From: Chloranthus sessilifolius
Lineage: Eukaryota; Streptophyta; Magnoliopsida; Chloranthales; Chloranthaceae
Assembly: GCA_021018995.1 (NCBI GenBank)
Contig: CM037585.1
Location: forward strand, 84,420,646-84,484,645
Length of the DNA: 64,000 nucleotides
Reading direction: 5' to 3'
The notes below the pieces were generated by a model that was not told where the DNA came from, did no database searches, and saw only the letters and a program-made list of their open reading frames with translations. The position numbers and the translations under genes are program-made. Below are positions 1-62,734 of this stretch, piece after piece (positions within the stretch are counted from its first letter, which is position 1; every line of letters begins with the position of its first letter).

Positions 1-1237
1 TTATCACCTTCTTCTGTTTCACTGTTAGATTTCATCTGCATCCCTGGGATGCCACTGACTTAATGCATCGTATAGATGCCCACCGTTACATATTTACGTC
101 CCCTGTGGTCCTCATAATTAAAACTTACATGTTTTAAAACTTACACACACACACCCTTTTTTCGAATGGTCATGTAATACTTGACTATTTATATGAAATA
201 TGCTACATATATGATTTGACGAAATAATGTACATGTTTCAAGAATAATCCCTACCTCAAAGCAAAACCTTCGATTCAAAGCACTCCCTTCTCCTAAACGT
301 GTGGACGCGAAGATTTCACGCCAATTCTAGATTGTATATGCCAAGAGTATGCTTAGAATGGTCATTAGGACCCTAGGAGTATATAGCCCCCCATAAATTG
401 TACTTAAAATTTATAAAATCCAAGTAGCGTCTCGCGCGAGCGGGAACTATTCCTCGCTCGAGCGGTCACTTAACTTCGCTCGAGCGAGTATTCAACCTCG
501 CGTGAGTGGTTAAAACGAGGTATCAACCCTCGCACGCGCGGTCACCCTAAATCGCTCAACTGACTTCTTTTCATCGTGCGAGCAGTTAAAACGAGGTGTT
601 CAATCCTCGCGCGAGCGAGTATTATTCATCTCTCGAGCGGTTAAAATGAGATCGTTTGAGCGGTTAAAACGAGCCATCTGAAGCTCTACGTAATGCCTCG
701 CTCGAGCGAGCCTCTCCTTTACTTTGGGTCTCGCTCGAGTGAGCTCAGAACGAAATCTGTTCTCAGGTTTTATATTTTGTCCTCGCTCGAGCGAGCCATT
801 TAGACTGCTCGAGCGGACCACGACAGAATTAAGTGCTCGATTAGTTCGAGAAAAATATTTCTTTTTCCATTCCAAGGCTTATAAATGTTAAAATCATTCA
901 TCTATTATTTCATACTCTATTAAACACACACATAAACATCTCAACCCATACCTCAATCGATAGACCCCGTATAATCTCGATCTTAGTTTCGAAACATATG
1001 AAAGGGGTCTCCATGGTTTCTTGTTATCTACCAGCCTCCATCTTTACAAACTCCTCTCTCGTTATTCTCTATTTTTCTCTCCTCTCTATTTTTTCTTCTC
1101 TCTAACTAGGAAGAATTAGGTTATGTATGAGAGATTCTCTCACTTTTCTCTTATATAGTCTTGGTTTCCTTGTGAACCACACATACATGTGTATGATACA
1201 TGACGTATACGGTTTACAAAAATCTGGGGTTATGACA
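1..1237 (-). repeat. E1 3' LTR, partial
   Basis: Bases 1-1237 match 9708-10962 of the complete LTR almost throughout. The LTR starts (minus strand) with TGTCATAACCCC next to the polypurine tract. It lacks about 50 bases present in the other copy near 10834-10885 and has an extra CGAG-type repeat unit near 640. A TATA-like CTATATAA lies at 1151-1158 (minus sense), and a second, CTATATACTCC, near 374-386 beyond the palindrome cluster. The outer end lies before the window. Confidence 0.95.
430..850. repeat. cluster of CGCTCGAGCG palindromes in E1 3' LTR
   Basis: Imperfect copies of the self-complementary decamer CGCTCGAGCG (central TCGA) recur every few tens of bases, for example perfect copies at 455-464 and 477-486, with variants such as CTCGCGCGAGCG between them. 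The same cluster is in the 5' LTR at 10130-10510 and again between pol and the third ORF at 3145-3365. Confidence 0.9.
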
Positions 1238-1250
1238 TTCACCCCACCTT
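1238..1250 (-). other. E1 polypurine tract
   Basis: On the minus strand AAGGTGGGGTGAA directly precedes the LTR start TGTCATAAC. This is the expected place and composition for the plus-strand DNA primer of reverse transcription. Confidence 0.8.
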
Positions 1251-1660
1251 ATATGATTTTCGTCCTCGAAAATCGATGATACTCGAGTGACTAGAAACGC
1301 CTATTACTAGGTTGTGCAATAGGCTAGTTCCATACATCCTCAGGTAACTAAACAATGGTCTAATTTCGTAACGACTTGCGTTAAACCATATCAACTTATA
1401 CCCATATAGTCAAGAATAATGATGATAAAATTTTATACTATCAGGTATTTCCACCATCATGATACTAATTGATCGTATGATAAAACTATAGACAATTGCC
1501 ATTATTGTATCAATACCCAAAATATCTGTGACAACCATGTCACAATAGTTTATGTAGTCAAAAAGCCACATCACCATCAAAACGATCATATCCAAAATAT
1601 TACCAACAAATTATTATAACCAAATTTCATTACCGTTCCAACGAAAAGTAAAATGACTAT
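1251..1660. other. E1 3' untranslated stretch, nothing recognised
   Basis: AT-rich sequence between the third ORF and the polypurine tract. The only open frame here is short and has no recognisable content. I see no structured feature. Confidence 0.5.
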
Positions 1661-2948
1661 CTAATCATCATCCTCCTCATACTCGTCGTCCTCGTTGCCG
1701 GAGCCATCATCATCGTCGTAGTCCTCGTCATCCTCATCCTCTTCAACCACCCTGGCGGTAGTGGTACCCCCTGTAGTGCTCCTCGTAGCAGGGCCTGAGC
1801 TAGACGCTCCAAAAATAGCGTCTCTCATGGCACCGATGCGCTCCATGTATGATTGCGGGTATGCCTAGCCCATGAGGTCTATAAGTAGCGCCTCCTGAAA
1901 CCTCTGATGTAACCTGATCTCCCGCCCCTGCTGGAGGAGCTCTCGCATCATGCCGGTGTCGATGGTGGGTAGGGGCTGTGAAGATGAAGTAGAGGGAGCA
2001 GTTGGTCCCGCCGGTGGTTGTTGCGTGGCTTGTCGGGAAATTTGGCGGTCTCTTTTCTTGTTGACACTAGTTTGAAGGCTCTTTAAGTTTCGGCTCCAGT
2101 CTTGGGCTAAATAGGGGACGACATTATCGGTAAGAGATAACTCGTCGGTTCGGATCTTGAATCCCTCTTTTTCATTTCGGGAGTCGAGGAGTCGGGAAAT
2201 CAAACGTGCATACGGTAGGCGGTTGATAGGTGGGGAATAGCGCCCCTGACATTTCTTCTATAGGCATGCACCATGACTTTGATAACTACCATGGGTGCAC
2301 TAAACCACCTGTTGTGAAAGGAGGAGTGCAGGGCTCGCAAGAATGCATCTCGGCGCTCTTGATCATGGCTGGTAGGGTGTAAATTCTTCTTAAAAATAAT
2401 ATCTAAAAGCCACATGTGTGGCGGTAGCTGAAACGGGTGATTGATTGGCCTGATGCGGACGTGCCGCCAGTAATATCCAAAATGATAGTTGGGAATTCTA
2501 CGTTCCCGGTAAAAGGTGGTTGAGTGTGTGGGCTCGGGGCATACGTATTAGGGCAATTCATGGCGGTGGAAACATCACCACTTCCAAAGGTTAACTCTTT
2601 TTCGTCGATTGTGACGAGGATGGTGTCCTCATTCACATTCATATTGAGAGTTTGATAAAACAGTTTTACTAGCCTCGGGTAGTACCGAGCTCCGAACGGT
2701 GTTAGCAATGGTCATAGTTAGTTGTTTGTTAGAAAATCTGAAGTCCATTTAGTGGACATCGGATTGACAAAACAAGAGGGATGAATTTCCCATTCGGTTT
2801 CCATGATCTTGGCTCCCCACCAATCGTTTAATTGGATAGGAGTGGTTGATGGGCATGGTTGTGGTGGTTGTGGCGCCTTGTTGCGCGATGATGGCGATCG
2901 AATCGCCATTCGTTTCTTTGGTTGGGGATTTGGGCTTGAAGAAGCCAT
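1661..2948 (-). pseudogene. E1 third ORF, putative plant transposon-protein family (ORF3)
   Basis: A third gene downstream of pol in the same direction. The start at 2948 opens with a short basic N-terminus containing PKKRM, a nuclear-localisation-like motif, and no signal peptide. A middle block contains YYPRLVKLFY, which aligns with YPRMVRLW and YPRLVKLW in the third ORFs of E2 and E3; a later block QERRDAFLRALHSSFHNRW matches their QERRTPILEALFHFSKGQF region. The end is a Glu-rich helix followed by a run of Asp and Glu of more than 30 residues. The frame is broken by at least two shifts (near 2700 and 2210) and one TAG at 1865-1867. I assign it to the family annotated in plants as 'putative plant transposon protein' from motif resemblance only. 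Its biochemical function is unknown. Chromoviruses usually lack such an ORF. Confidence 0.7.
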
Positions 2949-3144
2949 AATGCTTGTTTAGAACAAAAAGAAGCGGAATAGGATAGAAATTGGGTAGATT
3001 TTACCTTTTGAATCATTTTGGACGGATCGGATCGTCCGAATCTGGTTCGAATCAAACAGAAAAGATTGAAGATCAAAAGCCCTAAACCCTCGCTCAGCTC
3101 GGACTCCTCGCTTGAAGATGAAATGGACGTTTAACATTCTGTCT

Positions 3145-3365
3145 GTAATTTATAATCTGTCCTCGCTCGAGCGGTCGTTAGTTATTGCTCAAGCGAGCCC
3201 AGAATGCTCACTGATATAATTTATGGCCTCGCTCGAGCGGTTACTAATCGTCGCTCGAGCGATGCCAGAATACTTCCTATTTATAGTCTGTCCTTGCTCG
3301 ATGCCAGAATACTTCCTGTTCGAATCAAGAATACTAATCCTTGCTCGAGCGATGCCAAGCGACGT
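3145..3365 (-). promoter_or_regulatory. E1 ORF3 upstream module: TCGA palindromes and TATA box
   Basis: Perfect CGCTCGAGCG copies sit at 3164-3173, 3230-3239 and 3252-3261, with near copies at 3187 and 3342-3351, in the spacer between pol and the third ORF. Among them lies CTATAAATAG (minus sense, 3277-3286), an ideal plant TATA box, about 330 bases before the ORF3 ATG. The decamer is the one clustered in this element's LTRs. I infer an internal promoter for ORF3; transcription is not shown. Confidence 0.55.
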
Positions 3366-3617
3366 TGTTCTGGTTCTCTTAAGTCCACATCTTCACTGGT
3401 CTCGTGTAGCATTTAGAACACCTCTCACACATGACTTTGTATGTTGCACATTTACAATTTAAATCACATGAAAAGTTGTTCAGGCAAAAAGCTTATTTAT
3501 TATGCATGAATTTGTAATTGCACTCATTTGATTTGTTCAAGTATGAATTGATAGACTATCAATTTTATTTTTTTATTTTTTTTACCTTATCATATTTAAG
3601 AAAAACAAAAAGTACAA

Positions 3618-6600
3618 CTAGATAGCGTTCTCAAACAAGTTGGGATATTGTTCTCTGACATCCGCCTCCCACTCCCATGTTGCTTCCTCGGCCGCATGAT
3701 TCTTCCATCGAACAAGTACTAAGGGAATGACTTTGGTACGTAGCACTCGTTCCTTCTTATCCAATATCTCCTTCGGTTCCTCTATCATGCTCATGTCTTC
3801 GTGCATCTCCAGTGGTTGACCTTCCAAAATGTGGGAGGGGTCACCCACAAACTTCCTAAGCATAGAAACGTGGAAAACGTTATGTACCCGATCGAACACT
3901 GGAGGTAATCCAATGCGATATGCAACTTTGCCAACTAGGGCCAACACTTCAAATGGTCCAAGATATCGTGGACTCAATTTCCCTCTTTTTCCAAATCGCA
4001 TAACACCCTTCATCGGTGACACTTTTATGAAAACGTGTTCACCCACCTTATAATCTACACTGGTTCGCTTGATGTCAGTGTAGCTATTCTGCCTGCTTTG
4101 AGCTGACTTAAGTTTTTCTCTAATCATTTTGACGATTGTAGCATTATCTTCCAACAACTCGAGCCCTAAAACAAATTTCTCACCAGTCTCTTCCCAATTG
4201 ATGGGTGATTTATACCGTCTTTCGTATAATGCTTCATACGGTGCCATCCCAATGCTTGTCTGAAAACTTTTGTTATATGCAAATTCGATCAACAGTAGAT
4301 GTTGATCCCACGATCCTTGCATTTCTAGCATACACGCTCTGAGCATGTCTTCCATTACTTGATTTACTCGCTCTGTCTGTCCGTCGGTTTGCGGATGGAA
4401 AGCTGAACTAAAATCTAGTCGCGTTCCCATTCCTTCTTGAAATTTCTTCCAAAACTTTGATGTATATAACGGATCTCGATCGGACACTATGCTACTTGGG
4501 ATCCCGTGTAGGCGTACTATTTCCTTCATATAGAGTTCTGCGAGTTTTCCTGCCGTGTACATCGTATTGTAAGGTAGGAAGTGTGCTGACTTGGTCAGTT
4601 AGTCCACAATTACCCAAATGGCATTATATCTCTTTGCCGTACGCGGTAGTCCAATGATGAAGTCCATAGATATTGATTCCCATTTCCATTCCGATATAGG
4701 TAGGGGCTGCAATAAGCTTGCGGGATGTCTATGATCGATTTTGACTTGTTGACATGTCAAACATCGCGATACATACTTTGCGACGTCTTGCTTCAAACCT
4801 CTCCACCAATAATTCTTTTTCAGATCTTGATACATCTTCGTGCTCCCTGCATGGATAGCATAGCTTGACTTGTGGGATTCATCAAGAATCGTTCGTCGTA
4901 AATTGGCATTGTCCGGAATACAGAGACGGCCCTTAAAGAATAAGGAGCCATCCTCCTTGATTGAAAAGTCGGATCTGATACCCTCGATTACATCTTGACG
5001 TATCTTGGTCAGTACTGGGTCTTCTACCTGAAGTTCTCGTATATGTTCGAATATCACCGGTTTCACTGATATATTGGCTAAAAAGGCTCCTGTAGCTGGT
5101 GACTTGATGTCCGCACCATATAGTGCTAGATCTTCCAATAGTTTCCATTGGTGTATACCCAAAACTAGACTAGACAACTGAGCTGAACTCTTCCGACTCA
5201 AGGCATCGACCACTACATTAGCCTTGCCTGGATGGTACTGTATGGAACAATCATAGTCCTTGAGGAACTCCATCCATCTGCACTGCCTCATATTTAGTTC
5301 CTTCTATGTGAACAGATATCTGAGGCTCTTATGGTCGGTGAAGATTTCAAACGTTTCTCCATATAAATAATGTCGCCATATCTTCAATGCGAATATGACC
5401 GCTGCTAGCTCTAGATCATGTGTTGGATAGTTCTTCTCGTGCTCTTTCAACTGTCTTGACCCGTAAGCTATTACCGTTTTATGTTGATTTAGTACACAAC
5501 CTAAACCGTTATATGAAGCATCACTGTAGACTGCAAATCCTCCACTGCTTGATGGAATGGCTAACACTGGAGCTGAAGTGAGTCTCCTTTTGAGTTCTTG
5601 AAAACTCTTCTCACACGCTTCACTCCACTCAAATCTTGAATCTTTTCTTGTAAGCCTCGTAACAAGTCCCGAAATCTTTGAAAACCCCTCAACGAAATGT
5701 CGATAATAACCTGCCAGTCCAAGGAAACTTCGGACGTCTGTCATGGTCTTTGGTTGCTCCAAGTTCACTACTACCTCGATCTTAGCGGGATCTACTGTGA
5801 CACCATGCTTTGAGACGACATGTCCCAAAAAGCTAACCTCTTCTAACCAGAAATCACATTTGTTGAGATTGGCATATAATTGGTGTTCACGCAAAGTTTG
5901 TAGAGCAACCCGCAAATGTTCTTCATGCTTCGTCTTCAATTTTGAGTAAATAAGAATATCGTCAACAAACACGACAACGCAGGAGTCTAAGTGGGGTTTA
6001 AATACCTGATTCATTAAGTCCATAAACTATGCTGGTGCATTAGTCAATCCGAATGGCATCACCAAAAACTCATAGTGTCCATATCGTGTTCTGAATGCTG
6101 TCTTCTGTATGTCCTCAACCTTGACTCCTAACTGATGGTATCCAGATCTTAGATCGATCTTGGAAAAGTACTTCGCTCCTTGGAACTGATCAAACAAGTC
6201 ATCTATTATTGGCAACGGGTATCGATTCTTCACAGTGAGTTTGTTCAATTGTCGATAATCATTGCACAACCGCATCGACCCATCTTTCTTTTTCACAAAC
6301 AGAACTGGTGCTCCCCATGGAGACACGCTTGGTCTTATGAACCCCTTATCCATGAGCTCTTGCAATTGTTCTTTTAATTCTTTCAACTCAGCGGGAGCCA
6401 TCTTGTATGGTGCCTTTGAAACAGGCTCCGTTCCTTGTGCTAAGTCGATAGCGAATTCCACTTCTCTCTCTGGGGGTAATCCTGGCAATTCTTCGGGAAA
6501 TATGTCTTCAAATTCCCGCACTACTGCTATCTCAGAGATAACATTCTTTTCATCTTTATCTCCCTTCAGAAATGCCAAATAACTGCTGCACCCCTTTTTG

Positions 6601-7036
6601 ATTAAACGTTCTGCTCTGATTGCAGAGATGAGTGGCACTTGTGTCGACCTCTCTCCTCGAAACTGAAACGATCTCCTCGTGTTTGGTCAGAAAATAACAA
6701 CATTGTTCTTGCAATCCACCGTTGCACAATGATGGGATAGCCAATCCATGCCAAGGATCACGTCAAATCCTTACATCTCTAACAATATTAATTGTGCGTC
6801 CAATTCGTAGACAGCGTTATCCCAGACGCCCACTACTACCGATTTACAGACTAACTCTATGTCCACTAATTCTCCCGTTGGGATAGACACTGATAACACA
6901 AAGTCCAGTGTCTCCGGAACAATCTTCATTTTCTTTGCAAATCTAGGGGTGATGAAGGAGTGGGTAGACCCTGGGTCTATCAACACTCGTGCGTCACGTG
7001 GTACATAGCACCCTTTTTCATAGACTTGTAACGTAC
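3618..7036 (-). pseudogene. pol: E1 pol: protease, reverse transcriptase, RNase H, integrase, chromodomain
   Basis: One minus-strand frame from 7036 to 3618, broken only by five stops (6771, 6687, 6027, 5304, 4599) and no frameshift. Domains in order: aspartic protease with LIDPGSTHSF; reverse transcriptase with [10 protein letters not shown] and the catalytic FVDD; RNase H with SDAS and TDH; integrase with an HHCC zinc region (CLTCQQ), the catalytic Asp of SMDF, the next Asp in SDRD and the Glu of GQTERVN; GPF/Y-type region; and a C-terminal chromodomain ending near EEATWEWE. The chromodomain targets integration to marked chromatin in this group. The TAG at 5304 stands where the family usually has Gln, so it fits a C-to-T change. 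The enzyme motifs are otherwise well preserved, so the element is fairly young. Confidence 0.92.
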
Positions 7037-8669: not shown

Positions 8670-10962
8670 TGTGACAGCCCGAATTTTGATGCCCCAAAAT
8701 TCGTGCCATCATCACGACCCTCAAGGTCATGCACCTTAGATCTATGCGGGACATCTATAAACAAGAAAAAGCCAATAATTTAAAATAGCCCGAGCTCTAA
8801 ACTAGTTAAGTCTCAATGTGTTAATGAAAGTCTAGCAACATAACAGATAGTTCTGGTCTCATGCCAATTCATGAGCAGAAGAACTGTCCCGAACCATTGG
8901 TGATAACCTGATCACCCCAAATGGTTCGCAAGAATAATTTATGGCATTTAGTTACATTTAAAAGAATAAAGCTTGACATACCAAGTAAAAGTTACTCTCT
9001 ACTCACTCGCAATACGTAAAGAAACTTCTAAAAGAATTCTTCAGGAGGAGGTTCTAACTCTTCTCCGGTCACGTAATCCGGATCTTCTAGATCCACGTCT
9101 ACCGAAGCCTCAGCTGCCGCTAGAATTGGACCTAGGACGTATAGTCTAAGGGGTGAGCTACATCCTAGCTCAATAGGGAAGCAAAATGAACATATAGATT
9201 AACTCTCACATATGTGTTAGCAGTTTTAAAAGCACACTTTATCAAATATCTCTTTTGGAAAACAATTGAAATAACTGGAATAAAATAATGATTTCGACTG
9301 TTACTTTGCATGGTTTTGTTTGTTCTCACTTTACTAGTTTAGTTATGAAGTCGGTCTAATCACTTAAATCTTTAACTTAAGTAGTCCCCGAGCAATATAG
9401 CATCGAGCCCCGATGGAATACCCACCATCGTCGTCTAACTAGACAGTTCTCATATGTATTCCCTGGGAATACAGCCCAAGCCCTTTTCTCATAGGTGACG
9501 GGGTCTATTCTCAATTTTACATCCCTGGGATGTGCTATAACTGTACGGATTGGCCGCCGTACCGGTCACGGATATCCTGCCTAGTCAGTCGTGGGTATCC
9601 CGCGATGTCGGTGGGGTATTCTAATCAAACCTTAAATAACAAATATATCGAATGTGCTCTACATATAGATATTCACCGTGATTGTGCTAATTTTATTATA
9701 TTAGGCCTTATCACCTTCTTCTGTTTCACTGTTAGATTTCATCTGCATCCCTGGGATGCCACTGATTTAATGCATCGTATAGATGCTCACCGTTACATAT
9801 TTACGTCCCCTGGGGACCTCATGATTATCGTTTTTAAAACTCACACACACACACACTTTTTCCGAATGGTCATGCAATACTTGACTATTTATATAAAATA
9901 TGCTACATATATGATTTGATGAAATAATGTACATGTTTCAAGAATAATCCCTACCTCGAAGCGAAACCTTCGATTCAAAGCACTCCCTTCTCCTAAAGGT
10001 GTGGACGCGAAGATTTCACGCCAATCCTACATTGTATATGCCAAGAGTATGCTTAGAATGGTCATGAGGACCCTGGAGTATATAGCCCCCCATAAATTGT
10101 ACTTAAAATTTATAAAATCCAAGTAGGGTCTCGCGCGAGCGAGAACTATTCCTCGCTCGAGCGGTCACTTAACTTCGCTCGAGCGAGTATTTAACCTCGC
10201 GCGAGCGGTTGAAACGAGGTATCAACCCTCGCATGCGCGGTCACCGTAAATCGCTCAACTCACTTCTTTTCATCGCGCGAGCAGTTAAAACGAGGTGATC
10301 AATCCTCGCACGAGCGAGTATTATTCATCGCTCGAGCAGTTAAAACGAGCCATCTGAAGCTCTACGTAATGCCTCGCTCGAGCGAGCCTCCCCTTTACTT
10401 TGGGTCTCGCTCGAGCGAGCCCAGAACGAAATCTGTTCTCAGGTTTTATATTCTGTCCTCACTCGAGCGAGCCATTTAGACCGCTCGAGCGGACCATGAC
10501 AAAATTAAGTGCTCGATCAGTTCGAGAAAAATATTTCTTTCTCCATTCTAAGACTTATAAATGTTAAAATCATTCATCTATTATTTCATACTCTATTAAA
10601 CACACATGAACATCTCAACCCATACCTCAATCGATAGACCCCGTATAATCTCCATCTTAGTTTCGAAATAGATGAAAAGGGACTCCACGGTTTCTTGTTA
10701 TCTACCAGCCTCCATCTTTACAAAACCCTCTCTCCTTGTTCTCTATTTTTCTCTCCTCTCTATTTTTCCTTCTCTCTAACTAGGAAGAATTAGGTTACAT
10801 ATGAGAGATTTCTCTCACTTTTCTCTTATATAGAGAAAACTAGTGTGTTTTGCACACACACACCCTCAGTGTGTACATGATAGTCTTTGTTTCCTTGTGA
10901 ACCACACATACATGTGTATGATACATGACATGTACAATTTACAAAAATCTGGGGTTGTGACA
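8670..10962 (-). repeat. E1 5' LTR, complete
   Basis: The 2293-base repeat runs, on the minus strand, from TGTCACAACCCC (10962) to CGGGCTGTCACA (8670), with TG...CA ends. It contains the palindrome cluster (10130-10510) and TATA-like boxes near 10824-10834 and 10075-10090. The open frame seen at 9530-9919 lies wholly in this LTR and is not a gene. Confidence 0.95.
10130..10510. repeat. cluster of CGCTCGAGCG palindromes in E1 5' LTR
   Basis: Counterpart of 430-850: repeated decamers with central TCGA and variants such as TCGCGCGAGCG, spaced by tens of bases. Several copies differ between the two LTRs by single transitions at CpG. Confidence 0.9.
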
Positions 10963-11313
10963 TGTCCACAGCAAAAACAACAACTAGCTGTTCCTTCTCA
11001 GTTGTGGTATAGTTTTGCAGAGCCTCTGCTAATATTTTGCTGGCATAGTATATCATTGTTGGAAGCTTGTCTTTTCTCTGTCCTAAGACAGCTCCTATTG
11101 CCAGATCTGATGCATCACACATCAGCTCAAAAGGAAGGGAGTAATCAGGGGATTGGATTGTAGGAGCAAAGGTGAGGCACTTTTTCAATGCCTCGAAGGC
11201 CTCAAGGCACTCAGCAGAAAAATCAAATTGCACATCCTGGCACAGCAGGTGGCACAGTGGTGTTGTAATTTTGCTGAAGTTCTTAATGAATCTCCCATAG
11301 AATCTAGCATGTT
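10963..11313 (-). pseudogene. E6: remnant of an Athila-type RNase H
   Basis: Minus-strand fragment with FELMCDASD and NYTTTEKE, matching the RT-RNase H region of E2 at 23000-23360. It ends abruptly at the E1 LTR on the left and at the E5 LTR on the right, so it is what is visible of the oldest element here. The bases TGTCC at 10963-10967 may be the E1 target duplication and CATGT at 11309-11313 that of E5; neither partner copy is in the window. Confidence 0.85.
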
Positions 11314-14611: not shown

Positions 14612-14773
14612 TATTAATTAGTGAAAAATGCATGTTTTCACCCTTTACGCTGACCTGTGACAGACCTGTGAGTATAATAATAAATGCTTGTTGAGTATGT
14701 TTTGTAGATAGCAGTAAAAGGCAGTCATAGTGCAAAAATTCACCCAAAAATGCTTCACAAGAAGGTCCATCTC
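14612..14773 (+). repeat. E3 5' LTR, piece 1
   Basis: Matches 60757-60917 of the 3' LTR, from TATTAATTAGTGAAAAATG to GAAGGTCCATCTC, where E2 is inserted. A perfect 7-base hairpin GTGAAAA...TTTTCAC is at 14621-14641. Confidence 0.95.
14769..14773. repeat. target duplication ATCTC of E2
   Basis: ATCTC at 14769-14773 and 29027-29031 flank E2 exactly; the uninterrupted sequence GGTCCATCTCTCAGTAC is seen in the 3' LTR of E3 near 60909. Confidence 0.96.
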
Positions 14774-39955: not shown

Positions 39956-39957
39956 GA

Positions 39958-46292: not shown

Positions 46293-46435
46293 AAAGTAAG
46301 ATTTGGGCTAGGATATAAGCCCACAGAGCAAGAGGTCTGAGAGGCCAAAGAAAAGCCAGGGTCGCCGCAGCAACAAGAGCTTGAGGAACCAGCATAGAAG
46401 AGAAACCTCGCTCTAGGCCGCACATCAGGGATTCC

Positions 46436-49130: not shown

Positions 49131-50472
49131 TTAGATGAAGCCGATCGTGATCGAGCAGAGGAATGAGCCAGCCTTCTGCCTCTAGATTGAGGAACCTACA
49201 AAGCCTAATGATGAGCCACCTTGGTTCTTAGATATCAAGAATTTCCTCGAGACCCTGACCTTCCCAGAGGGTACATCCAAGACAGACCGACGAACCATTC
49301 AACGTCTAGCGGCAGGTTATGTCATTTGCGGGGAATGCCTCTACAATCGATCATACAATAATATCTTACTCAAGTACCTTACTGAAAGTGAAGCGGTCGA
49401 CATTATGAAAGAAATCCATGAGGGAGAATGCGGAGCCCACGTCAGCGGTCACATGCTCGCCAAGAAAATCCTACGGCAGGGATACTTTTGGACCACCATG
49501 GAATCAGATTGCTGCAAACATATTCAAAAATGCTACAAGTGTCAAGAACACTCCAGTCTGATACACGCTCCTGCCATTGATCTTCATTGCATGACCACTC
49601 CTTGGCCATTTGCTACCTGGGTCCTTGACGTTGTCGGATTGATTAATCCAAAAGCATCAAATGGACATTGGTTCATCCTCATCGCCATTGAATACGTCAC
49701 CAAGTGGGTAGAAGCGGCGTCATATGCCAACATCACGGCCAGTCACGTTGAGAAGTTTCTCAAGAACAATATTGTGTGCCGATTTGGAGTACCAAAAGAT
49801 ATCATCACAGACAACGGCACAAACTTCGCAAATAAGCCCATCCGAGACTTCTGCGAGCAATACAAGATCAAGCACCATCGCTCATCCCCTTATCGGCCTC
49901 AAACTAATGGAGCCATGGAAGCCGCGAATAGGACTGTAGTCTGCATCCTCGAGAAAATGGTCGTCACTTATTGAGAATGGAGCGAAATGCTACCATTTGC
50001 TTTGTGGGCCTACCGAACATCGATCCGTACCACTACAGGGGAAACACCATTCTCCCTTGTGTATGGAACCGAGGCCGTCCTCCTGGTGGAGGTTGAAGTA
50101 CCCTTACTCTGAATCTTTATGGAATCAAGCTTACCCAAAGCAGAAGGAGAAAGATCACGCTTTGATCAGCTGAACTTATTAGACGAGAAGAGATTCCTAG
50201 CCTTGTGTAACACTCAAGTTTACCAAGGGCGAATCGCACGCGCTTGCAATAAACATGTTCGCGGTCGAGATTTGAAGGTAGGAGACACTGTGTTGAAGAA
50301 GATCTTCCCATCCCTCCACGTCGATCTGTGGGGAAAATTCAAGCCAAACTGGGAAGGACCTTACGTCATCCGATAAGTGCTGTCAGGATACGCCATCCGC
50401 CTCGCCACCATGGACGGAGATCATCTTCCTGAGCCCATTAACGCTCGATATGTCCGACGGTTCTACTCTTAG
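49131..50472 (+). pseudogene. pol: E4 integrase
   Basis: Frame 1 with four stops (about 49184, 49972, 50108, 50374). Zinc region HVSGHMLAKK with CYKCQE; catalytic residues in VLDVVG, ITDNGTNF and GAMEAANR all present. [15 protein letters not shown] and a C-terminal WEGPYVI follow; natural stop at 50470-50472. No chromodomain. Confidence 0.92.
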
Positions 50473-53333
50473 TCCATCACGACAAGGTAAGTGTTGGTGA
50501 AACAGATACGTGACTGCTTAAGAACCACCCGAAAGAGGCCATCATTCCAAGCACAGTAGCCTAAAAACATCCCTAAAAATGATGATATCCTTTGCTACCC
50601 CATTTGAGCCTAGGCCTTCCTTTCAATAAACCCATTCCCCCAAAAAAAAATATATACGTGTACATATACCAAAAAAAAAAAGAGAGAGAGAAAAGATGAA
50701 GTAGAGTTACTATCAAAATTCAAAAAAATCGAAAAAGCAAAACCTTAAAAAGAGATTGCCTGAAATAAAGCAAAACGAACAAAAAAAAATGTAAAAGAAT
50801 CATGGGGCATGTACAGTAAAAACCCCCACGGAAGAAAGTATGTTGAGAAAACTGAAGTTGTATCAAGGAAACCCTTTTAGCCTAGCATACCTTGAAATCC
50901 TAACCTAACCCATGGCCAAGCTACACCCTGAAGGAAACCCTCTTTGTAGGTTCGCAAGCAGTCATAATATCTGTTAAGTCAACATGAGCAAAGTCGTGAG
51001 ACACTAGAACCCCATCTAGCCGGCTATGACGAAATCGACATCTATGTTGTGGCTCAAAAAAAAAAAAAAGAATAAAAAATATAATAAAAATACAAGCTCA
51101 AAGCAAGATGGACGTAGTGACAACCCGAAAGGCCATTACGGGTAAAAACAGGGGGCTTGTGCAAACCAGGTGAAAACCCGGAAGGGCGCTTGGGGTAAGA
51201 GAGGTAAACCCATGGACGTGGTGAAAACCTAAAAGGGCACCACGGGTAAAAAAGGAGATAAATGAAAAAAAAATAAAAAAAAAAGGAGAGAGAGAAGGAG
51301 AATGAAAAGAAAAAGGAAAAGAAAAGAAGGTTTGGACTGATTGAGATTATTGATGTTTGAGGAACCCTTTTCTTACTTTTCCTATACCCTCTTGTCCGAC
51401 TGGGCCGCTCATGCTAGTTCGAATCGGGTCCCGACCATAATTGTCTTTGTGAAACCCACACCGTCAATTGTATGACCCGAGGCAAGGAGAAAGGTTTAAC
51501 TCAATCCAAAGGGATCAACGTTCAGGCCTTGGTAAAATCTGGAAACTCACTTAGGTTTGACTGCATGAAAGAGTTCGACTATGCTAAAAATGGGACCCGT
51601 TACTCCGTCTCACTATCAAGGCATAAAAAAAAAAGAGCCAAAAACAAAAAAAATCAAGAAAAATCCAAACTCCAAAAAACTGTGTATATATTTCTACTCA
51701 TTTTCATGTACATATTTTCAGCATCATATTTCAATCTCAAAAATGAAGAAAAATAACAAAAAAATCTCCAAAAACAAAAACCCAAAAAAAATATCTTGAA
51801 AATGAAAAAGTATAGGTAGAAATCTACTTTTTCTTTTATTGTTTAGGATGCATTTTCTTTATATATATAAACAAAAAAGGGACTGACGTTTTCTCGAGAA
51901 TGTGCAGGAACATCACACAGTCCAAAGCCTCGAAGCAGGCAACTTCTCAGCGATGGACAAATCAGATAAAGCATCTCACCGCCGACATCAGGTCTAACAA
52001 AAAAATGATGAAAATCATTTTGAAAAGAAAAAGAAATCTATGTTTTCATACGACGCACATGCGTGTTTTGATGCGGTAAAATGTCAATATTTTATCGACA
52101 ACGCAGATGTGCAAAATTAATGTCCTAGGTCAAAGGTTCGCCTTGGATCCATGGATCCTACTTCAAAGTAGGAGTAACGGTGTAAGTCCCGGTCAAACAT
52201 TCAATGTTTCTGTTCGGTCAACTCCACTGCTAAATATTTTGAGCGATGAGCGCTCTGTTTTGGATTCGTGTGAACTTGAGTTGTCTTAAGCTTCAGATTC
52301 TCCGTTGAAAAAGGTCAATCGTTGGTTGAGACCAACCTGTTGAAAATGAGATTATGTGTCAATCAAACTATGTGCAACCATGCATTTAGAAGGGTTCATT
52401 TCCCTTTTTATTTTCTAGAGGCTTAAAACCTGTATGGGCAGCGGTATCCCTATAAAGTGTACACCATGCGTCTAGGTATCCGTATGATGGTCGTTTGTCC
52501 TCGTAAATTATACCCGGGTGGGTCTGGGTCGGGGCTTCCATCGCCTTTGTTGTTGCTTATTGCCCCTGATGGGTGCATGATTATGCATAGTTAATTGATG
52601 ATTATGATCATTGTCAATAGAGGCCAGGATTGGATGCCCCCTTTTGGGAGGTGCCCAATGTTTGGCTGGATCTGTTCAAGGAAGTCAAAATTGGATACTC
52701 TGGGTCATGTGGATCTGGGGCACGCTTTAAAAAAATGGCACATACTCCCAAAAAGCGTTGTGACATCTATTCACTTCGCTCAGGTGGTCATGCTAAATAA
52801 ACTTTAGGATCGATGGGTTCGCCCAAAGATCTCAAACCCCGCTTTCAGCAGGGCCACTTGCGAATGGTCCGATGGGGCCATCAAATGCCTTGTAGGATTG
52901 GACGCAAAATGTGGAGCCTTGTGTATGTTTAGTTCACACCTATCTTTAAATATGGGTCGATCACCCCTCTTACTTACGAAGCTGTTGCATTCATAATGAA
53001 TCTCGAACATCAATCACCTTCAAATCATCTCAAGAAGCGGGCGTTTTTCCCGACTAACGGGCTTTCGCAACTCGAGAGGTGAACGGTTTTCCCAGCTATT
53101 GGGCTTTCGCAACTCATTCCACCTTGGTTATGCCCAGTAATGTCGCTAAGCACCTGGGAATCGATTACCCCGAGAAACGAATGATTGGCCTAGCACCCCA
53201 GGGCTTTCGTTTTCTCACCGTGTTACTCACTTGATGTTTGAAGTTCATTCTGAATGCAGCAGACCTGTCAGTAATGCCTTGGGCCTCTTCGGATATCTTT
53301 TTACTTTGGCATACGATCATTAGTGATCAGATA
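50473..53333 (+). other. E4 3' untranslated region
   Basis: About 2.9 kb with no recognisable gene. It holds A-rich runs, three GTGAAAACCC-type units (51110-51255), a Lys-rich chance frame at 51472-51756, and two units of GGGCTTTCGCAACTC at 53063 and 53102. The length is usual for Tat elements. Confidence 0.75.
51110..51255. repeat. three imperfect GTGAAAACCCGAAAGGGC units
   Basis: Units at about 51117, 51170 and 51219 share GTGAMAACCYRRAAGGSC and end near GGGTAAAA/AGAG. Similar strings are common in Tat 3' regions. Confidence 0.75.
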
Positions 53334-53334
53334 C

Positions 53335-53348
53335 CAAAGAGGGGCATC
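53335..53348 (+). other. E4 polypurine tract
   Basis: AAAGAGGGGCATC immediately before the LTR start TGTAGACACCC; typical of Tat. Confidence 0.85.
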
Positions 53349-54851
53349 TGTAGACACCCAAATTTGGCCCAAGGCCAGATCGAAACACCTTTCGAGAGAG
53401 GTGTAATTCTAAGCTTTTGATGGCATGTATGGAACCCTTAGGAATCACCCTAAACCCTTAGCAATCACCCTATATCTCTTAGGAACCTACCCCAAATCTT
53501 TAGAAACCAATCTCGAACCCTTAGGAATTAACCATACCCTTCCCAGACCTATTAGAACCCTTCCCGGGCATGATTCGAACCCCCCTGAATAGTGGTTAGA
53601 AAGAGGAGTGCTAAAGTTTTTTGTGGATAGTTTCCCAACCTAAGGTATATACTATTGGAAAGTATACTTTTCCAGCTTTCCAACGAGCTAAGAATCGCCT
53701 AATTTGGAGTTGTACATAAAAAATTATGGCAATTTGAAAATTGTGGATTTGTGCAGGAAATTGCAAACCGGGCCGGGCCCCAGCGGGTCTTCAACTTCCA
53801 ACAGTTTGGACCAGGTTTTCCTTCAAAAAATGGCCAAAATTGACATTGGGGGTTTGACTTGTGGACCATCCCAAAGTCTAGGGCGTGTTTCTTTAGGACC
53901 CTAGTGACCCTATTAGCTTAAGTTATCACCCTTTCGCCATTCAAGTCACCACCCTATCATCTACCATTAAACCCAAATCCCTCTTCTCCAAGCTCTAGAA
54001 ATCCACAAAAACCTTAGATTTCACATTACCTAATTGCTAATCTAATTAGGACTTTAACCCTCACTAATCCTCCCTTTCTCCATAAATAGAGAGCCACCCC
54101 TCTTGCTTAAGGGTTGAGAGTTTTTACCTAAGAGAGAAAGAGCTTAAGTGAGAAGATCTTACTCCCTTTGGTGCACCATCCCCATACAAATTCCAGAATT
54201 GAAAAAGCCCCTTTGGACCTTAGTATTTCACTAAAAACCTTTAGGTTAGGTGTGTGTTACCCCCTAGCTTTCCTTCTCTACCTCTTAGTTTCAAGCTTTA
54301 GGAGTTAGAACCCCCATTCCATACCATACAAGCCTTCAAAAAGCTCACCGAAGCAAGCCAACGCAAGGCTCCCCAACGGTGCTACAAGGGCCCGAGAGCT
54401 CCGGCTCTCCCCTCTATTCCTCTACCTTCTTTGTTTTTCCTCTATCATAGAATTGAGCCGTTACGCTGCCCAAATTTTGGCAAGCGGGAAGGACTCAATA
54501 GGATCGGTGTACCTTCGGGCAAGGGAAAGTGCCGCTCATTTTACTTTCTTTTATATATATATATAATTATATATATATATATACTATATAAACCAGCCCC
54601 ACATAGACCTGGCCTTAAGTAGAGACTGCATTTAGCGGGTTGATCGGGTGCCTAACACCTTCCCGATCGATAACCGAAGCCCCTACCCAAGAGCCTTTGG
54701 TGTGGACCGGATTCAGAGTCATATTTTTAGCACTTCGGTGCTCATAAAACTGAACTAGGTATCCCGGGACACCAAAAGCTCTGGGTGGCGACTCTATATT
54801 TTTTATAGTTAGAGAGCGCAACGGGATCATCACGATTCCCATGGTTGCACA
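53349..54851 (+). repeat. E4 3' LTR
   Basis: 1503 bases, matching 38446-39955, with the same AT microsatellite near 54552-54585. Confidence 0.96.
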
Positions 54852-55129: not shown

Positions 55130-55377
55130 TTTCAGTGTGTATCATATGTAATGTATTTTGGTTCTGTTTTAAGTGATTAATTTCTGTTTTGATGTTTTTT
55201 TCATTTACAATAAAATTGCCATGTTAGAATTCGGTCATCATATCAATCTTATCAGCAGTCTAGGGACCATGGGAGAATGTAAATAATGAAAACAAATTGA
55301 ATGGAAGCACAACAAAAGAATTTACTGGGTGCTGAGGTTGAACACAACACAAAAATGCAATTTTTATGGGCATATGG

Positions 55378-55642
55378 AACCTTTCGATAGGTAATTTGAG
55401 GATTTTGATAGGCACTAAGACTTGTTGATAAGTGAAAACAACTCTTTGATAGGTTCAAAAGGTCAGAAAGAAGTTTTCGATAGATTCTGGATACCTATTA
55501 GGAACCTATCGTGAGGAAGGATTTGACCTATGGAAGCATTCCACCTGCATGCCGTATTCTTTATAGTGTTCGACAGGATGCCTTGACCTATCAAAATCAC
55601 CCAGCTCATCTTATCGAAATCGATTCTCACTCTTTATATACC
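55378..55642 (+). promoter_or_regulatory. E3 ORF3 upstream module: ATCGAT palindromes and TATA box
   Basis: Between pol and ORF3 are decayed CCTATCGATAGG-type motifs (CCTTTCGATAGG at 55380, TTTTCGATAG at 55474, CCTATCGTGAGG at 55504, TTCGACAGG at 55568, ATCGAAATCGAT at 55614) plus TTGATAGG variants that have lost the CpG. Then TTTATATACC (55633-55642) lies 330 bases before the ORF3 ATG at 55972. An AAACCCTAGG box and GGGTAAGTTG donor-like site are in the leader (55852-55878). The same palindrome is clustered in this element's LTRs. Confidence 0.55.
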
Positions 55643-55971
55643 TGTTGTTAGGTCATTTTTGCTCCATTCAACACCTTCTGCAAAACCTTAGATCTCTCTT
55701 CCTCTTTTGTCACTGCTCTCATTTTCCGCTAAATACTCTAAGGACTTTTCGCCGTTCAATTTGCCATCCCTCAAGTTCATTCAACCCGCAGAAAGGAGCA
55801 TTTTGCACCTGATTTTTGTGGAATTGGAATTGTGCATCACGATTTCTGCAAAACCCTAGGAGTTTTGGGTAAGTTGTCCTGCTTTCACTCTGTTCTTTTT
55901 CTAATTGTTTACTTCAGAGTTTTAATACATATTGGTCAGTGAGCCTTACGAGATCAACTTTTGAGAGTAAA

Positions 55972-58954
55972 ATGGTCGATTCTGAAGAAACCCTAGTTGA
56001 CCTATTGCGGCAACCAGCTTCATCCACCCCAAAGTCCTTCAAAAAATCAAAGCCTACCACCAAATCACCTACCAAAAGGAAGCTCCCTAAGGGGACGCCC
56101 AAGAAGACTCCTAAAGCAAAAAAGGCCAAGTCTGCAGCAATTCCAGAGACTGACGCAGAAATACCTGTGGAGAGATCTACTCCAGCTGGGGAAGCACCAT
56201 TGCCCACCCCTGACATATTACCTGAGGTGGAGCTTCCTACTGCGTTAACCACTCCTAATGAGTTTGTGGATGGTTTGAGCCTTGTCCCTGAGACAGATTT
56301 TGACCTTGCGTACTTTGCCAAGATAGAGGAGTTCCAGGGGACACTCATGTATCTGAAGAATTAGGGATTGTTACCCCTACTTACACCCTTGAAGGAGACT
56401 GTGTACCCCAGGCTGGTTAAATTGTGGTATCAGAATTTGGCAAAGAAGGTGGTGCCTGGGACTGAGGCTATGCTGGAAATTTTGATTGATGATTGGCAAA
56501 TCACTGTGGATTGCAAGGATATTGGGATGGATTTGAGAGTTCCACATCGATTTAACTCCACTACATCTGAGGGAGCACCCAAATGAGTTGCATTTAGAGA
56601 AATGGCTAAACAACTCACCAATGGAATTGCAGGATCTGGTGAATCTTTAATGAGAAGAGACCTCCAACCCAACCTCAGATTCATCAATACTATTCTGAGG
56701 AAGAATGTGTATGTCACTGGGCACCTGCAGGAGAAAAGGGCCCCAGTTGTAGATGCTTTGTACTATTGTTCAAGAAGGTAGTTTTTGAATGCACCAAATC
56801 TGATTTTTGAGACAATGGTAGACATTAATGATAAGGTGCTTAAAAGACAAGCATTTGCTAAAGGTGATGGGTTGCCTTTCAGCAGGCTCAATACATGTTT
56901 TCTAAAGGCTGAGAAATATGTGGTAAAGAGGAATGAGCCAATAGAGAAGTTGACCCCCAAAGAGTAAGGAAAAAGGGCATGGTCCACCAGTCTGACCCTG
57001 ATAAAGAAGAGTAAGCTAGTTGAGATGGAGGAGGTTGAGGAGGTGCCCACTACCACTGTAGCAGATCTTACTACTGAGATTCCCTCCTCCATCCTTTCAC
57101 CTACCTTACCCACATCATCACCAACACCTCCACCCACTTTTATTTTCCCCTTTGTATGAGCTCCTTTTCCCACAAACCCCCCTCCTCCTACCTCTGAGCC
57201 AGTTTTACCTCCACCCACCACTTCAGTTCTCGAACCTGAAGTCCTTGAACCTCCAACACTACCAGACCCTACCCCTACCCTTTCTACACCACCCTTTGAC
57301 CAACCCATTTCTGACTTTTCCCCTCACCAACCCCTACTTCATATCCAAGGCTTAGACCAGTTTACCACTGTTGGGTTCACTGCTCTAATGACATCCATTG
57401 TGGAAGATGTTGGGCATGAGTACACCCCACTCCCTGACTCCCCACACCCCACTCCCCCTCACTTCAACCATGCACCCTCCTCCCCTTTCCATCGCATCTA
57501 AACACTTGTCCCCTCCAACTCCACCATTCCTGATACTTTCACATAATTTGTCTCCCTCTTAGAGTCCATTCAAACTCAATTGACCACCACCACCAACAAC
57601 CAAGCCATCATGAGCTCATGCCTTCAATCCATTCAGTCCACCCTTATCCCATCCTCTTCAGTTCCCAACCCCTTCACACTTCTCCTCTTTCCCCTGTCCA
57701 ATCACCTCTCCATTTATCTCCTCCATCTTCACCCATAGCTCCACTTCCCACAGCTGCTACCCAGTCTGAGGAGGTAGCAGCTCAACTTTTCCCCATACCT
57801 ATCTCACCACCATCTTTTACTCCTTCCTCACCAGCTGTAGTAGCTACTGCAACTGTTGTGTCACCTACCACCCAACCACCCACTCTCCCTCCACCTGTCC
57901 TCAAAGTTGCCACAACCCAAACTGATCCATTTGAGGAACTAGTTTTCTCCACCCCCCCTCTCCCTGCACTCTACCCCTTTCCTTGCCCATTGTACTCAAA
58001 TACCCCATCTACATTTTCCCTTACCTCACATTGCTATATGCAATGAGGGACAACCCCTACATCCATCGGGATGTCCTGAGAGGTATGGCTGCCATCCAAG
58101 CTTCCCTTGAAGCCTCCTATGAGGAGAGGATTGCTAACATGGAATTGGAGCATAGAATCATGCTCTAGGATATCTCTGAGGGGTGGAAGAAAATCCTGAC
58201 TCCTTATGAGTTTGCAAAACTACTTGCTGCTGCTCAGCGTAGCACTGCCGAGTTTGAGAAGAAGAATGCTGAACTTCTTCAGAAAAAATTAGCCAATGCC
58301 AAGGAGATACTTAAGGCTACCCAAGAACTCTCTGAGTCCAACCTGCTTTATGCAACAAAGAAAATCAAAATTTTGGAGAGAAAGATTGCTTCATTAACCT
58401 CTCAACCATTTCAACCAGCCCCTCTAGCTACAGCTCCTCCTACCAATCCTTCATCCACCCATCCCTGTACACCTTCTTCCACTCAACCTACTCCTACCCC
58501 ATCTGTGGATGTTCCCCCTCCTCCAGCCCAAGATCCTCCTTCCTCTCAACCTACCCCACCAAAACCTTAGAGGACTTACACAAAAAGAAGAGTCACTTCT
58601 AAAAGATCTGTTTCTTCTACTTCTGCTCGCAGAAAAGGGAAGGAACCTTCTACGCAGTTTGAAGAGGTAGTCCCCACAAAGCCCCCACCCCCACATGACA
58701 CCTCCTCCACCTTACTCTACAAGGAGGAAAGAAGGCAGGCTGCTGCTGCCCTTCGCCTAGATCCTACTGCCCTCTTCCCTTCTGATTCTACGGATGCTTC
58801 TGCCAAGCAAGACAAGAAATTTGCTACCCAGTCAGAGGAGGCCCCCCAGCAGTCCACCTAGAAGTCCCAACCTAAAGGAAAAGCTCCTTTAACCAAGAAA
58901 GATTTGAAAAACTTGGCAGACTTGTATGATTGGCCTGATGATGCTTGTAAATAG
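55972..58954 (+). pseudogene. E3 third ORF, putative plant transposon-protein family (ORF3)
   Basis: Homologue of the E2 and E1 third ORFs, broken by many stops (56362, 56584, 56779, 56965, 57158, 57500 and others) and at least two shifts. ATG 55972 is preferred to the upstream GTG. Residues 15-60 are Lys/Pro/Thr-rich, histone-H1-like (TKRKLPKGTPKKTPKAKKAK), again nuclear rather than secreted. Core motif YPRLVKLWYQNLA; then MRRDLQPNLRFINTILR and HLQEKRAPVVDALYY. A long Pro/Ser/Thr-rich part follows, then AMRDNPYIHRDVLRGMA, matching E2, and a coiled coil near 58200-58400. The C-terminus, with RR and KK clusters and TKKDLKNLADLYDW, is longer than in E2. Function unknown. Confidence 0.75.
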
Positions 58955-60740: not shown

Positions 60741-60756
60741 CCTAGGTTTGGGGGTG
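60741..60756 (+). other. E3 polypurine tract
   Basis: CCTAGGTTTGGGGGTG immediately upstream of the 3' LTR. Confidence 0.85.
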
Positions 60757-62734
60757 TGTTAATTAGTGAAAAATGCTAGTTTTCACCCTTTAACCTGACC
60801 TGTGATAGACCTGTGAGTAGACTAATAAATGCGTGTTGAGTATGTTTTGTAGATAGCAGTAAAAGGCAGTCATAGTGCAAAAATTCACCCAAAATGCTTC
60901 ATAAGAAGGTCCATCTCTCAGTACAGCTCAGACCCAACAATGGCACACAAGAGGGTTGCACACCAATGCCCACTTGAGGCATGCAACAATAGTAAAGCAA
61001 TTTTGAAGAAGTGAAAACAGGCTAAAAATAACCTATCGAGAGGTTATTGGAACCTATCGATAGGATCTGAAGGCTAAAAAAGGAAGAAGTCATGAAGATG
61101 GGAGAATTCGATAGGATCCATAACCTATCGCGCAGTCAGAAATAAGAAGGGAGCATCCTATCGACAGGTTTCCTGAGCTTGAAGAGAACCTATCGAGAAG
61201 TCTGAACCTGTCGATAGGAGCTAGAAGCAAACCTATCGAAACTTATTGCGCAAGAGATCAACTTTTCGAAAAGATCCTTCAACCTGTCGAATACACCAGA
61301 TGAAGGCTGCGGATGCTGGAGCTCTATTGGAACGATCAACCTATCGAAACCTATCGAAAGGATCCTGAATCCTAGCGAAAGGAACAAAATGCCTACTTGG
61401 AACTTGTCGAAAGCTTCAGGAACCTATCGAAATTGACTGAAGGACTTCTCAAAAGAGTTGTTGTGCACACGCTGCAAATTGGTGACCTACTGCACGCAAT
61501 TTGAGGCAATCTGGTGAGTGGCACAACGGTTTTAGAAATGCCCTAGAAAACCCTAACCGACAAACGTGCTTTCTCCCAACTCTAACTAACTCAGAGGACC
61601 TTCTAGAAGGGGAATAAAAAGGGAATAACAGAATCAGCCCGGATGAGCTGTGATTGGCAGGAAAAACATATCTGATGCAGAGGGGGAGAGATATAAAAGG
61701 AGGGAAGTTGCTAGAAAAAGGTGGACCATTCTGGAGATCAGAGCTTATATCAAAATTTTCTTTCGAATTCATATTCTTTCTTTTAGCCCAACTATGGTTG
61801 GCTAATTTCTCGGGAGCAGCAAGGAGTGAGGTTGGACCTGTAATTGGGGAAGGTTGAGAGTGTTATTGAGGGTCAGATGATGCACAGACTACAAATCTGA
61901 GAGTATTTCATTGTATAGTGAGTTTATTTCAATGCAGTGTTGGTTTTATTATTTTAATTAGATCCATAGTTCATCTGGTTTCGTTTGGTGCTTGATCGGA
62001 TTTGTGTAGATGGGAATAAGCTCACCCACTTAACTGGTAGACCTCTTGGATACCATTTGATCTCCCTAGATCTGATGTTCCTACAATTGCCTATGTCTGT
62101 GGCCTGGCAGTTGCAGCATTTGTAGTGATTATAATGTTCTGATGGAAACCTGAGAATGGAGTGAATCTATTAGATGATCTGTGACCATTGAAGTGGATAG
62201 ATCATAGCCTTAAGATCAATCCAAATCTCTGGCTTAGATTTGATTCTTCTACCCTATAGTTGTGCTTGTAGCCAGATGAGGGATTGGTGCACTTTGAACT
62301 CTTTGTAACACTTTCAGCTCAACCCAATTGCAGCAAGACCAAACTCTAAGCTACTTCTCTCCATTTTCTATTTTTTATTTCACCAAAAATTCCCCTCAAT
62401 TGTAAGATCTGAGCTCTAGACTTGATCCCATTTCATTTCTGCATTTAATTGTGTTTCTGCAGTTTAGTTTAAAGTGACAACCCCTTAAAACCTCTCCTCT
62501 TCCATTTGCTATTTTAGTATTAGGTAGGGTGCCAGATCTACTATAGATATGGAGATTTACTTGATTTTCAGCTCACATTTCCCTGTGGACATTCCCTTAC
62601 TCTTTAAAACTTGCTACAATAGGCCCTGAACACTTGCAGGTATGTGTGTCTGCTTGCTTTGGTGTGTGCCACCAATAGATCCTTTAATTGTGTGATTTTA
62701 ACCCTCTTTTCAAACCCAAGGCAGGAAGTCAACA
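60757..62734 (+). repeat. E3 3' LTR
   Basis: 1978 bases, TGTTAATTAGTG to AAGTCAACA, uninterrupted. TATA box ATATAAAAGG at 61691-61700, downstream of the palindrome cluster. Hairpin GTGAAAA...TTTTCAC at 60766-60786. It gives the empty-site sequence for both insertions in the 5' LTR. Confidence 0.96.
61020..61450. repeat. cluster of CCTATCGATAGG-type palindromes in E3 3' LTR
   Basis: About 14 motifs with central TCGA, mostly AACCTATCGAAAGG or CCTATCGATAGG (61026, 61050, 61105, 61156, 61187, 61205, 61231, 61260, 61282, 61329, 61339, 61401, 61421). They lie upstream of the TATA box. Confidence 0.9.

Follow-up and report, generated by a model that had tools for sequence, protein, structure and literature searches.

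Family-specific DNA words common to the long terminal repeats and the pol-ORF3 spacer of plant Gypsy retrotransposons: a candidate self-addressed regulatory circuit

What might the extra 3' open reading frame of a plant retrotransposon do, and why should one short DNA word be gathered both in the long terminal repeats (LTRs) of an element and upstream of that frame? The question is raised by a 64,000-nucleotide stretch of the Chloranthus sessilifolius genome (contig CM037585.1; hereafter the window), which is made up of nested plant Gypsy elements, E1 to E4 among them. Elements E1, E2 and E3 have an order in common, in which pol is followed by a spacer and then by an open reading frame, ORF3, and the initial annotation of the window had described clusters of TCGA-centred palindromes in the LTRs and the pol-ORF3 spacers of these three elements; an exact-word scan agrees with it on where the sites lie. 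The word shared by spacer and LTR is real, as 9-mer, LTR-matrix and palindrome tests indicate, and the two places differ together between families, as had been proposed, out of sample in genome copies and in a motif-free matrix of spacers against LTRs. ORF3-bearing Gypsy families may carry a self-addressed regulatory circuit, with ORF3 as the putative self-specific regulator of both promoters of its element, a reading from sequence to which we give slightly better than even chances.

In the window CGCTCGAGCG has 12 exact copies, every one of them within the two LTRs or the spacer of E1, and CTTTTCGAAAAG has five, four in the LTRs and spacer of E2 and one in the 3' LTR of E3 (61262), while CCTATCGATAGG has only two, both in E3 LTRs, the half-sites AACCTATCGA being numerous in the LTR and spacer of E3. 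The perfect E2-type site at 61262 may be left over from an ancestral code (a code being here the word of a family) common to both. In a comparison of 9-mers with one mismatch allowed, the sharing between each spacer and its own LTR exceeded that of 60 Markov shuffles (z = 19.1 for E1, 4.8 for E2 and 8.6 for E3), as the annotation had it, and the E3 spacer reached z = 10.4 with the solo LTR E3b, which has the E3 code. When these spacers were compared with the LTR of E4 or of a different code, z was at most 3.2 in all eleven cases (E3 spacer vs E4 LTR), and five control non-coding stretches compared with five LTRs gave 2.4 at most, with the exception of one E4 stretch vs the E4 LTR (5.3), a value which is perhaps due to TA-rich words and was 0.0 with shorter pieces. 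Matrices built from one LTR alone had 5, 11 and 9 matches in the own spacers of E1, E2 and E3, where 100 shuffles gave 0.13, 1.65 and 0.40. In E4, said at the outset to have neither cluster nor ORF3, no word is clearly enriched in the LTR and in the stretch from pol to the 3' LTR alike (best P 0.004, TA-rich).

The description of the sites as palindromes stands in part. Strict palindromic 8-mers are strongly enriched in the LTR and spacer of E1, clearly in the 3' LTR of E3 and marginally in the E3 spacer, and the strict TCGA-centred palindromes of E2 score no higher than the top one among 256 words does in shuffled sequence, so that E2 as a strict palindrome array was rejected. The term is exact in E1 and partial in E2 and E3, where half-sites prevail.

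The elements belong to two lineages. E1 (minus strand) is a chromovirus, with SH3_Tf2-1 and a chromodomain match at the C terminus of pol (chromodomain E 7e-5, just under the cut-off). E2 (minus) and E3 (plus) are 71% identical in gag-pol DNA across 5.3 kb and both are Athila-like, a class assigned by likeness of pol and ORF3, with the name Athila taken from the Pfam domain PF20167 and the literature. E2 was inserted into the 5' LTR of E3 with the target duplication ATCTC, and that LTR is split by E2 and also by the solo LTR E3b, with about 67% identity to that of E3 and a target duplication of approximately GTGGA (by eye); E4 is nested within the pol of E3. The parts are as follows, by position in the window.

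1 to 1238, minus strand: E1 3' LTR, truncated where the window begins, with its site array at 430-850
1868 to 3130, minus strand: remains of E1 ORF3 in a broken frame, the domain piece at 2409-2711 being homologous to E2 ORF3
3131 to 3617, minus strand: E1 pol-ORF3 spacer, five scored sites with centres at 3168, 3190, 3234, 3256 and 3346
3149 to 3154, minus strand: TATAAA box, 7 nucleotides behind the last E1 spacer site
3618 to 6686, minus strand: E1 pol pieces, the C-terminal piece (3621-4598) with the SH3_Tf2-1 and chromodomain match
9708 to 10963, minus strand: E1 5' LTR, 12 scored sites at 10136-10486
14775 to 16614, minus strand: E2 3' LTR, array at about 16126-16355 as 52-bp repeats (21+31 spacing)
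18512 to 20770, minus strand: E2 ORF3 (316 and 436 amino acids, a single stop between)
20771 to 21451, minus strand: E2 pol-ORF3 spacer, array at 21102-21362, TATA-like TATTTAAA at 21078-21085 (by eye)
21452 to 25783, minus strand: E2 pol pieces, Athila-like
27196 to 29026, minus strand: E2 5' LTR, array at about 28560-28766, target duplication ATCTC
29027 to 30619, plus strand: main part of the E3 5' LTR, array at 29151-29578; the remainder lies at about 14610-14774 and at 32693-32846
30620 to 32692, plus strand: E3b, solo LTR of a related family with the E3 code, 14 scored sites
38446 to 54851, plus strand: E4, nested in E3, a negative control with no array common to LTR and internal region
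55200 to 55900, plus strand: E3 pol-ORF3 spacer, nine scored sites at 55385-55646, TATATA at 55635-55640 (by eye)
55873 to 58858, plus strand: remains of E3 ORF3 with several stops, homologous to E2 ORF3
60757 to 62734, plus strand: E3 3' LTR, 15 scored sites at 61037-61428, TATA box at 61692-61698

Adjoining E1, at 10965-11312, lies a Gypsy-pol-like remnant of another broken element.

Do the codes hold beyond the window? Copies were sought in the assembly from which the window comes (32 contigs, 2.17 Gb in all), part of which was searched. With 501 bp of the E3 spacer as query, 40 places were scored, the window itself included, and 20 of the 39 others were taken as partial stretches, namely the best and the 19 least alike, so that the E3-family sample is biased towards diverged spacers. 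The analysis covers the 12 of these 20 copies in which spacer and LTR array could both be read; L009, L011, L014, L016, L017, L018, L020 and L027 were left out (LTR or spacer missing, cut or nested), and L001-L008, without an LTR array, were not used for pairing. In all 12 the top 8-mer of the spacer, and separately that of the LTR, is to within one letter part of AACCTATCGA. Nine stretches taken separately, from left-out loci and from second elements of L019 and L021, have varied codes: the spacers of L018 and of the second element of L021 have a fourth code described below, the spacer of L020 is E3-like, the end of L027 has a word resembling the fourth code, and the LTR stretches of L011, L019 and L020, with no spacer for comparison, have only weak words (P 2e-6 to 2e-5) that match no known code. 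The nested Athila-like element at L016:5000-9900 (minus strand) has arrays of the E3 code in its LTR as well as in its spacer. In L010, L013 and L023 the array segment of the LTR is about 78-80% identical to E3 and the LTR segments on both sides 87-91%; this dip is absent in L022 and L028, and it is only a lead, given that the copies were chosen for diverged spacers.

The chromoviruses give the same result. A genome search with E1 ORF3 gave 150 scored places, of which seven copies were fetched, and L041 was added from a list of pol matches, its ORF3 status not being known beforehand; all eight carry ORF3 and the E1 code. The seven have 6-9 sites in their spacers and 7-12 in their LTRs, against 0.2-0.6 in shuffles, and in ORF3 together with the 3' untranslated region six of the seven have none and L039 has two. 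L041 has 13 sites across 3.1 kb, against 1.3 in shuffles.

A further clade was located through ORF3 alone. Of 150 scored places in a genome search with PF20167 five were fetched, and four of them are Athila-like elements whose ORF3 is just 33-38% identical to that of E2; the fifth, L033, was dropped since it has no Athila parts, and in L032 the element's own LTR was not readable. This fourth Athila-like clade uses a fourth word, CCTCGCGAGG, centred on CGCG: CCTCGCGA or CTCGCGAG ranks first or second in all four spacers and in all three identified LTRs. A matrix from the three LTRs has 10-14 matches in the four spacers, against 1.5-2.2 in shuffles, and 1, 2 and 1 in the window spacers of E1, E2 and E3, against 0.6-0.9. 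The claim that every family keeps the same TCGA centre fails here, and TCGA as a universal core is rejected.

The spacer-by-LTR matrix, which uses no motif, sets these codes side by side for nine chosen elements and E4, with LTRs cut to approximately the first 0.8-1.35 kb. Its median z is 15.0 within the same element (n=9, minimum 3.0 in L030), 17.6 for the same code in another element (n=14, minimum 4.2) and 0.4 for different codes (n=76, maximum 4.5 for the L029 spacer vs the E1 LTR). The matrix is block-diagonal by code, values within a code running from 3.0 to 40.6, and the groups are nearly separate, with L030 against itself (3.0) and L031 against L030 (4.2) lying under the highest different-code value.

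The arrangement of the sites suggests that they are read on double-stranded DNA. In E2, E3 and E3b the distances between site centres are multiples of about 10.4-10.55 bp, those of E1 fit about 11 bp, and all seven window arrays tested reach 1% or better against a jitter null, in a test that used one LTR copy per element and from which E2 hits outside the cluster were dropped (one in the spacer, six in the left LTR). The seven are not independent cases, because E3 is homologous to E3b and the spacing is bound up with tandem repeats of 52 bp in the E2 LTR and of 22 bp in E1. Among genome copies, for spacings of at most 80 bp, V(10.5) is 0.44-0.86 in all 24 E3-family arrays and V(11) is 0.25-0.89 in 14 chromovirus arrays, both stated without a null. 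Three of the four codes, those of E1, E2 and E3, have their sites spaced in step with the DNA helix.

The spacer arrays also stand in a regular position relative to what may be a promoter. In all nine chromovirus spacers a TATAWA starts 6-7 nucleotides after the last site, and a strict test of this position counted 11 of 27 spacers, against 3.3 expected: 9/9 in chromoviruses, 2/4 in the fourth code, 0/1 in E2 and 0/13 in E3, where the final scored site lies behind the TATATA (by eye). Outside the count of the strict test, TATA-like words stand at the end of the arrays in the spacers of E2 and E3 (by eye), and in the fourth code L030 has TTTATA at a similar position and L031 TTTAAA (by eye). 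A TATA box behind the LTR array is present in some LTRs only.

What is the protein whose gene follows the spacer? The 316-residue piece of E2 ORF3 matches PF20167 and no other Pfam entry (E 9.6e-8, 32.5 bits, under the 45-bit cut-off), and two chromovirus ORF3s match the same domain (L036 at 4.3e-7, L041 at 2.6e-8, both under the curated 45-bit cut-off) together with two names at chance level. The remains of ORF3 in E3 and E1 are homologous to E2 ORF3, and the chromovirus and Athila-like proteins are homologous to each other (E 9e-26, 28% identity over 212 columns), in an alignment from which one misaligned E3 row was dropped. In the chromoviruses the ratio of nonsynonymous to synonymous divergence (dN/dS) of the ORF3 domain is 0.09-0.26 (28 pairs from eight copies, 93 codons, dS up to about 1.3), which shows purifying selection on the protein. 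The N terminus is rich in lysine and arginine, with PQPRKRM or PQPKKRM near it in chromoviruses, and four of the eight fetched chromovirus ORF3s (L036, L037, L038 and L041) have a strongly acidic C-terminal tail which resembles an activation or histone-binding tail. Three reading frames with the acidic end are located as follows.

L036, 1827 to 3497: chromovirus ORF3 with acidic end
L037, 860 to 2356: chromovirus ORF3 with acidic end
L041, 664 to 1971: chromovirus ORF3 with acidic end

Three other fetched chromovirus ORF3s break off earlier or shift frame. A comparison of ORF3 with solved structures gave four chance-level ankyrin hits only, and protein searches and contig scans beyond this genome gave no match.

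That ORF3 binds the sites is plausible, since the reading frame is conserved, its N terminus is basic, an acidic tail is present in four of eight copies and the frame appears to have an array-linked TATA box of its own. One plausible sequence of events is that ORF3 is expressed from its own promoter, in which the site array is followed by the TATA box and a leader, and that its product, probably a nuclear DNA-binding protein, recognises the site of its own family, cooperatively and along one face of the helix. Recognition upstream of ORF3 would then give positive feedback, and recognition in the U3 region of the LTR would activate the genomic promoter or protect it from silencing. If the recognition drifted, both arrays would be re-tuned together, and family-specific codes would result.

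Several observations weigh against this self-addressed circuit. The E2 code was seen in a single element, and the ORF3-less control is E4 alone (n=1). The codes overlap to a degree: the E3 matrix has 8 matches in the E2 spacer, against 0.56 in shuffles, which means that these sister codes overlap, even with zero matches of the E2 matrix in the E3 spacer, and the E1 matrix has 3 matches in two fourth-code spacers, against about 0.5. The fourth code shows little helical phasing or none (V of 0.11-0.48 at 10.5 bp). The PF20167 match is weak and below the cut-off throughout, and a Pfam scan of the E2 protein and two chromovirus ORF3s found no recognised DNA-binding domain; the ORF3s of L035 and of E1 in the window stop at ...DLMG, before the acidic tail. 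As for the expectation that clusters track ORF3, arrays are present at ORF3 loci and E4 is without both, but the nested element in L016 keeps its arrays with only about 0.8 kb from the spacer match to the 3' untranslated region, seemingly too short for ORF3, which appears to have been deleted. The strict link between ORF3 and array is therefore broken, and this element looks as a non-autonomous copy served in trans would, which is one possibility.

An account by which host transcription factors bind the arrays, ORF3 promoter and LTR using the same host factor and families exploiting different factors or escaping repressors, is unlikely yet the strongest of the alternatives. The fourth code contains CGCG, a core known for some plant regulators, spacer arrays do precede TATA boxes, and one host factor acting on both promoters would also give a shared word. 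The repeated motifs of the Ty1/copia Sireviruses mainly matched stress-related sites of the host, and nuclear factors were considered there (Bousios et al., 2010; PMC2829016, in the part of the paper available to us). However, four codes would call for four separate host factors, LTR and spacer would have had to change together in every case, and the conservation of ORF3 would have no relation to the arrays. The joint change extends even to the sisters E2 and E3, which in an aligned spacer segment (21195-21239 vs 55436-55480) have CTTTTCGAAAAG and CTCTTTGATAGG between flanks that are alike, the differences being mainly in the bases of the code; the E3 copy L010 has CTTTTCGATAGG at that site (by eye), with one half retained and the other changed.

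The likeness between spacer and LTR could also have arisen by tandem duplication and copying, through template switching or gene conversion, with no protein reader, an explanation that is already disfavoured and that we regard as improbable. The arrays of E1 and E2 do include short tandem repeats, and in both elements spacer and LTR align at about 62% over 171-192 columns. Outside the sites, however, there is little likeness, and the idea of the spacer as a mere copy of part of the LTR was rejected; the E3 spacer and LTR give no alignment better than E=0.03, a tandem-repeat search listed no array at the E3 spacer cluster, the helical phase is kept at unequal distances and chromovirus subfamilies at dS of about 1 retain the code. 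It is very improbable that the arrays act in silencing or in RNA, whether as targets of small RNAs or of methylation or by forming hairpins in the genomic RNA, for although most sites contain CpG and palindrome-rich Sirevirus LTR regions have been described, in the portion of the literature available, as hotspots of small-RNA mapping, many half-sites have no dyad and would therefore make poor hairpins, the helical spacing speaks for a protein on double-stranded DNA, and the family difference with its match in two places is left unexplained.

With the self-addressed circuit as the preferred reading, the closest precedent is that of the Sireviruses. According to the available part of the study by Bousios et al. 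(2010; PMC2829016), their repeated motifs are element-specific palindromes in at least eight copies, most of which lie in the LTR's upper half. Nine elements with an envelope-like (ENV) gene repeat the motif upstream of it (77 of 79 linker copies), whereas four ENV-less elements have no motif in the linker; by the authors' own account, the classic retrotransposons of their comparison lack the motif. The presence of the motif in the LTR and upstream of an extra 3' gene is as in E1-E3, and the E3 array, at 274-679 of a 1978-bp LTR, is in the upper half as well (the E1 LTR is cut by the window, and E2 is weak as a strict palindrome). The Sireviruses are Ty1/copia elements, whereas those described here are Gypsy, a chromovirus and two Athila-like elements in the window; the Sirevirus core is mostly CGG-CCG and the codes here centre on TCGA or CGCG; the extra gene is ENV-like there and PF20167-like here, and the part of the paper available mentions neither a self-encoded reader nor a phase in the spacing.

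The comparison with VANC made by the initial annotation stands as an analogy. In the available parts of the two reports on it, VANC is an anti-silencing protein encoded by VANDAL transposons, for which binding and hypomethylation have been shown, with motifs such as YAGTATTAY in one orientation and with the domains DUF1985 and DUF287 (PMC5735166; PMC10398659). Common to both systems are an element-encoded protein and short motifs dense in non-coding regions, and the evolution of VANDAL motifs together with VANC specificity, spread by tandem repeats, can be counted as a likeness; the hallmark of VANC-like systems, a family-specific word dense in the non-coding regions of its own elements, is present in our genome copies. 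VANDALs are DNA transposons with demonstrated binding, whereas the elements here are retrotransposons with a putative reader, and Pfam gives PF20167 in ORF3, not DUF1985 or DUF287.

Extra 3' frames have been described in other Gypsy elements. The sunflower Athila 14 has PF20167 in such a frame with a predicted nuclear localisation signal, a match downstream of pol as here; in its available part the paper reports no motif arrays and cites chromoviruses for 5' extra frames, whereas the chromovirus here has a 3' ORF3 (PMC11728184). Retand elements have TRP28 antisense frames and family-specific tandem repeats; TRP28, for which DNA binding was predicted and a regulatory role proposed, lies like ORF3 between pol and the 3' LTR. 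It is antisense, however, and has the domain PF04195 where ORF3 is PF20167-like, and no word shared by LTR and spacer is reported in the part available (PMC11963269). A literature search that had subscription papers outside its reach returned none that links Athila or PF20167 frames to such arrays.

The extra 3' frames of plant retrotransposons are very abundant, and a first look at this genome gave 49,176 and 30,525 candidate places (126 and 150 of them scored). A private site in the LTR and upstream of the frame is a concrete handle on what these frames do. It may be, though we put it a little below an even chance, that the ORF3s of plant Gypsy elements, classed so far as envelope-like or as unknown, serve their own family specifically, as factors of transcription or against silencing, that ORF3 and its array-linked promoter form a module of two distant Gypsy lineages, and that each family holds a private cis-trans code, convergent with those of Sireviruses and VANDALs. 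If this is true, self-encoded regulation would be found not only in Mutator-like transposons but also in major Gypsy lineages, and its anatomy would have a counterpart in the Ty1/copia Sireviruses.

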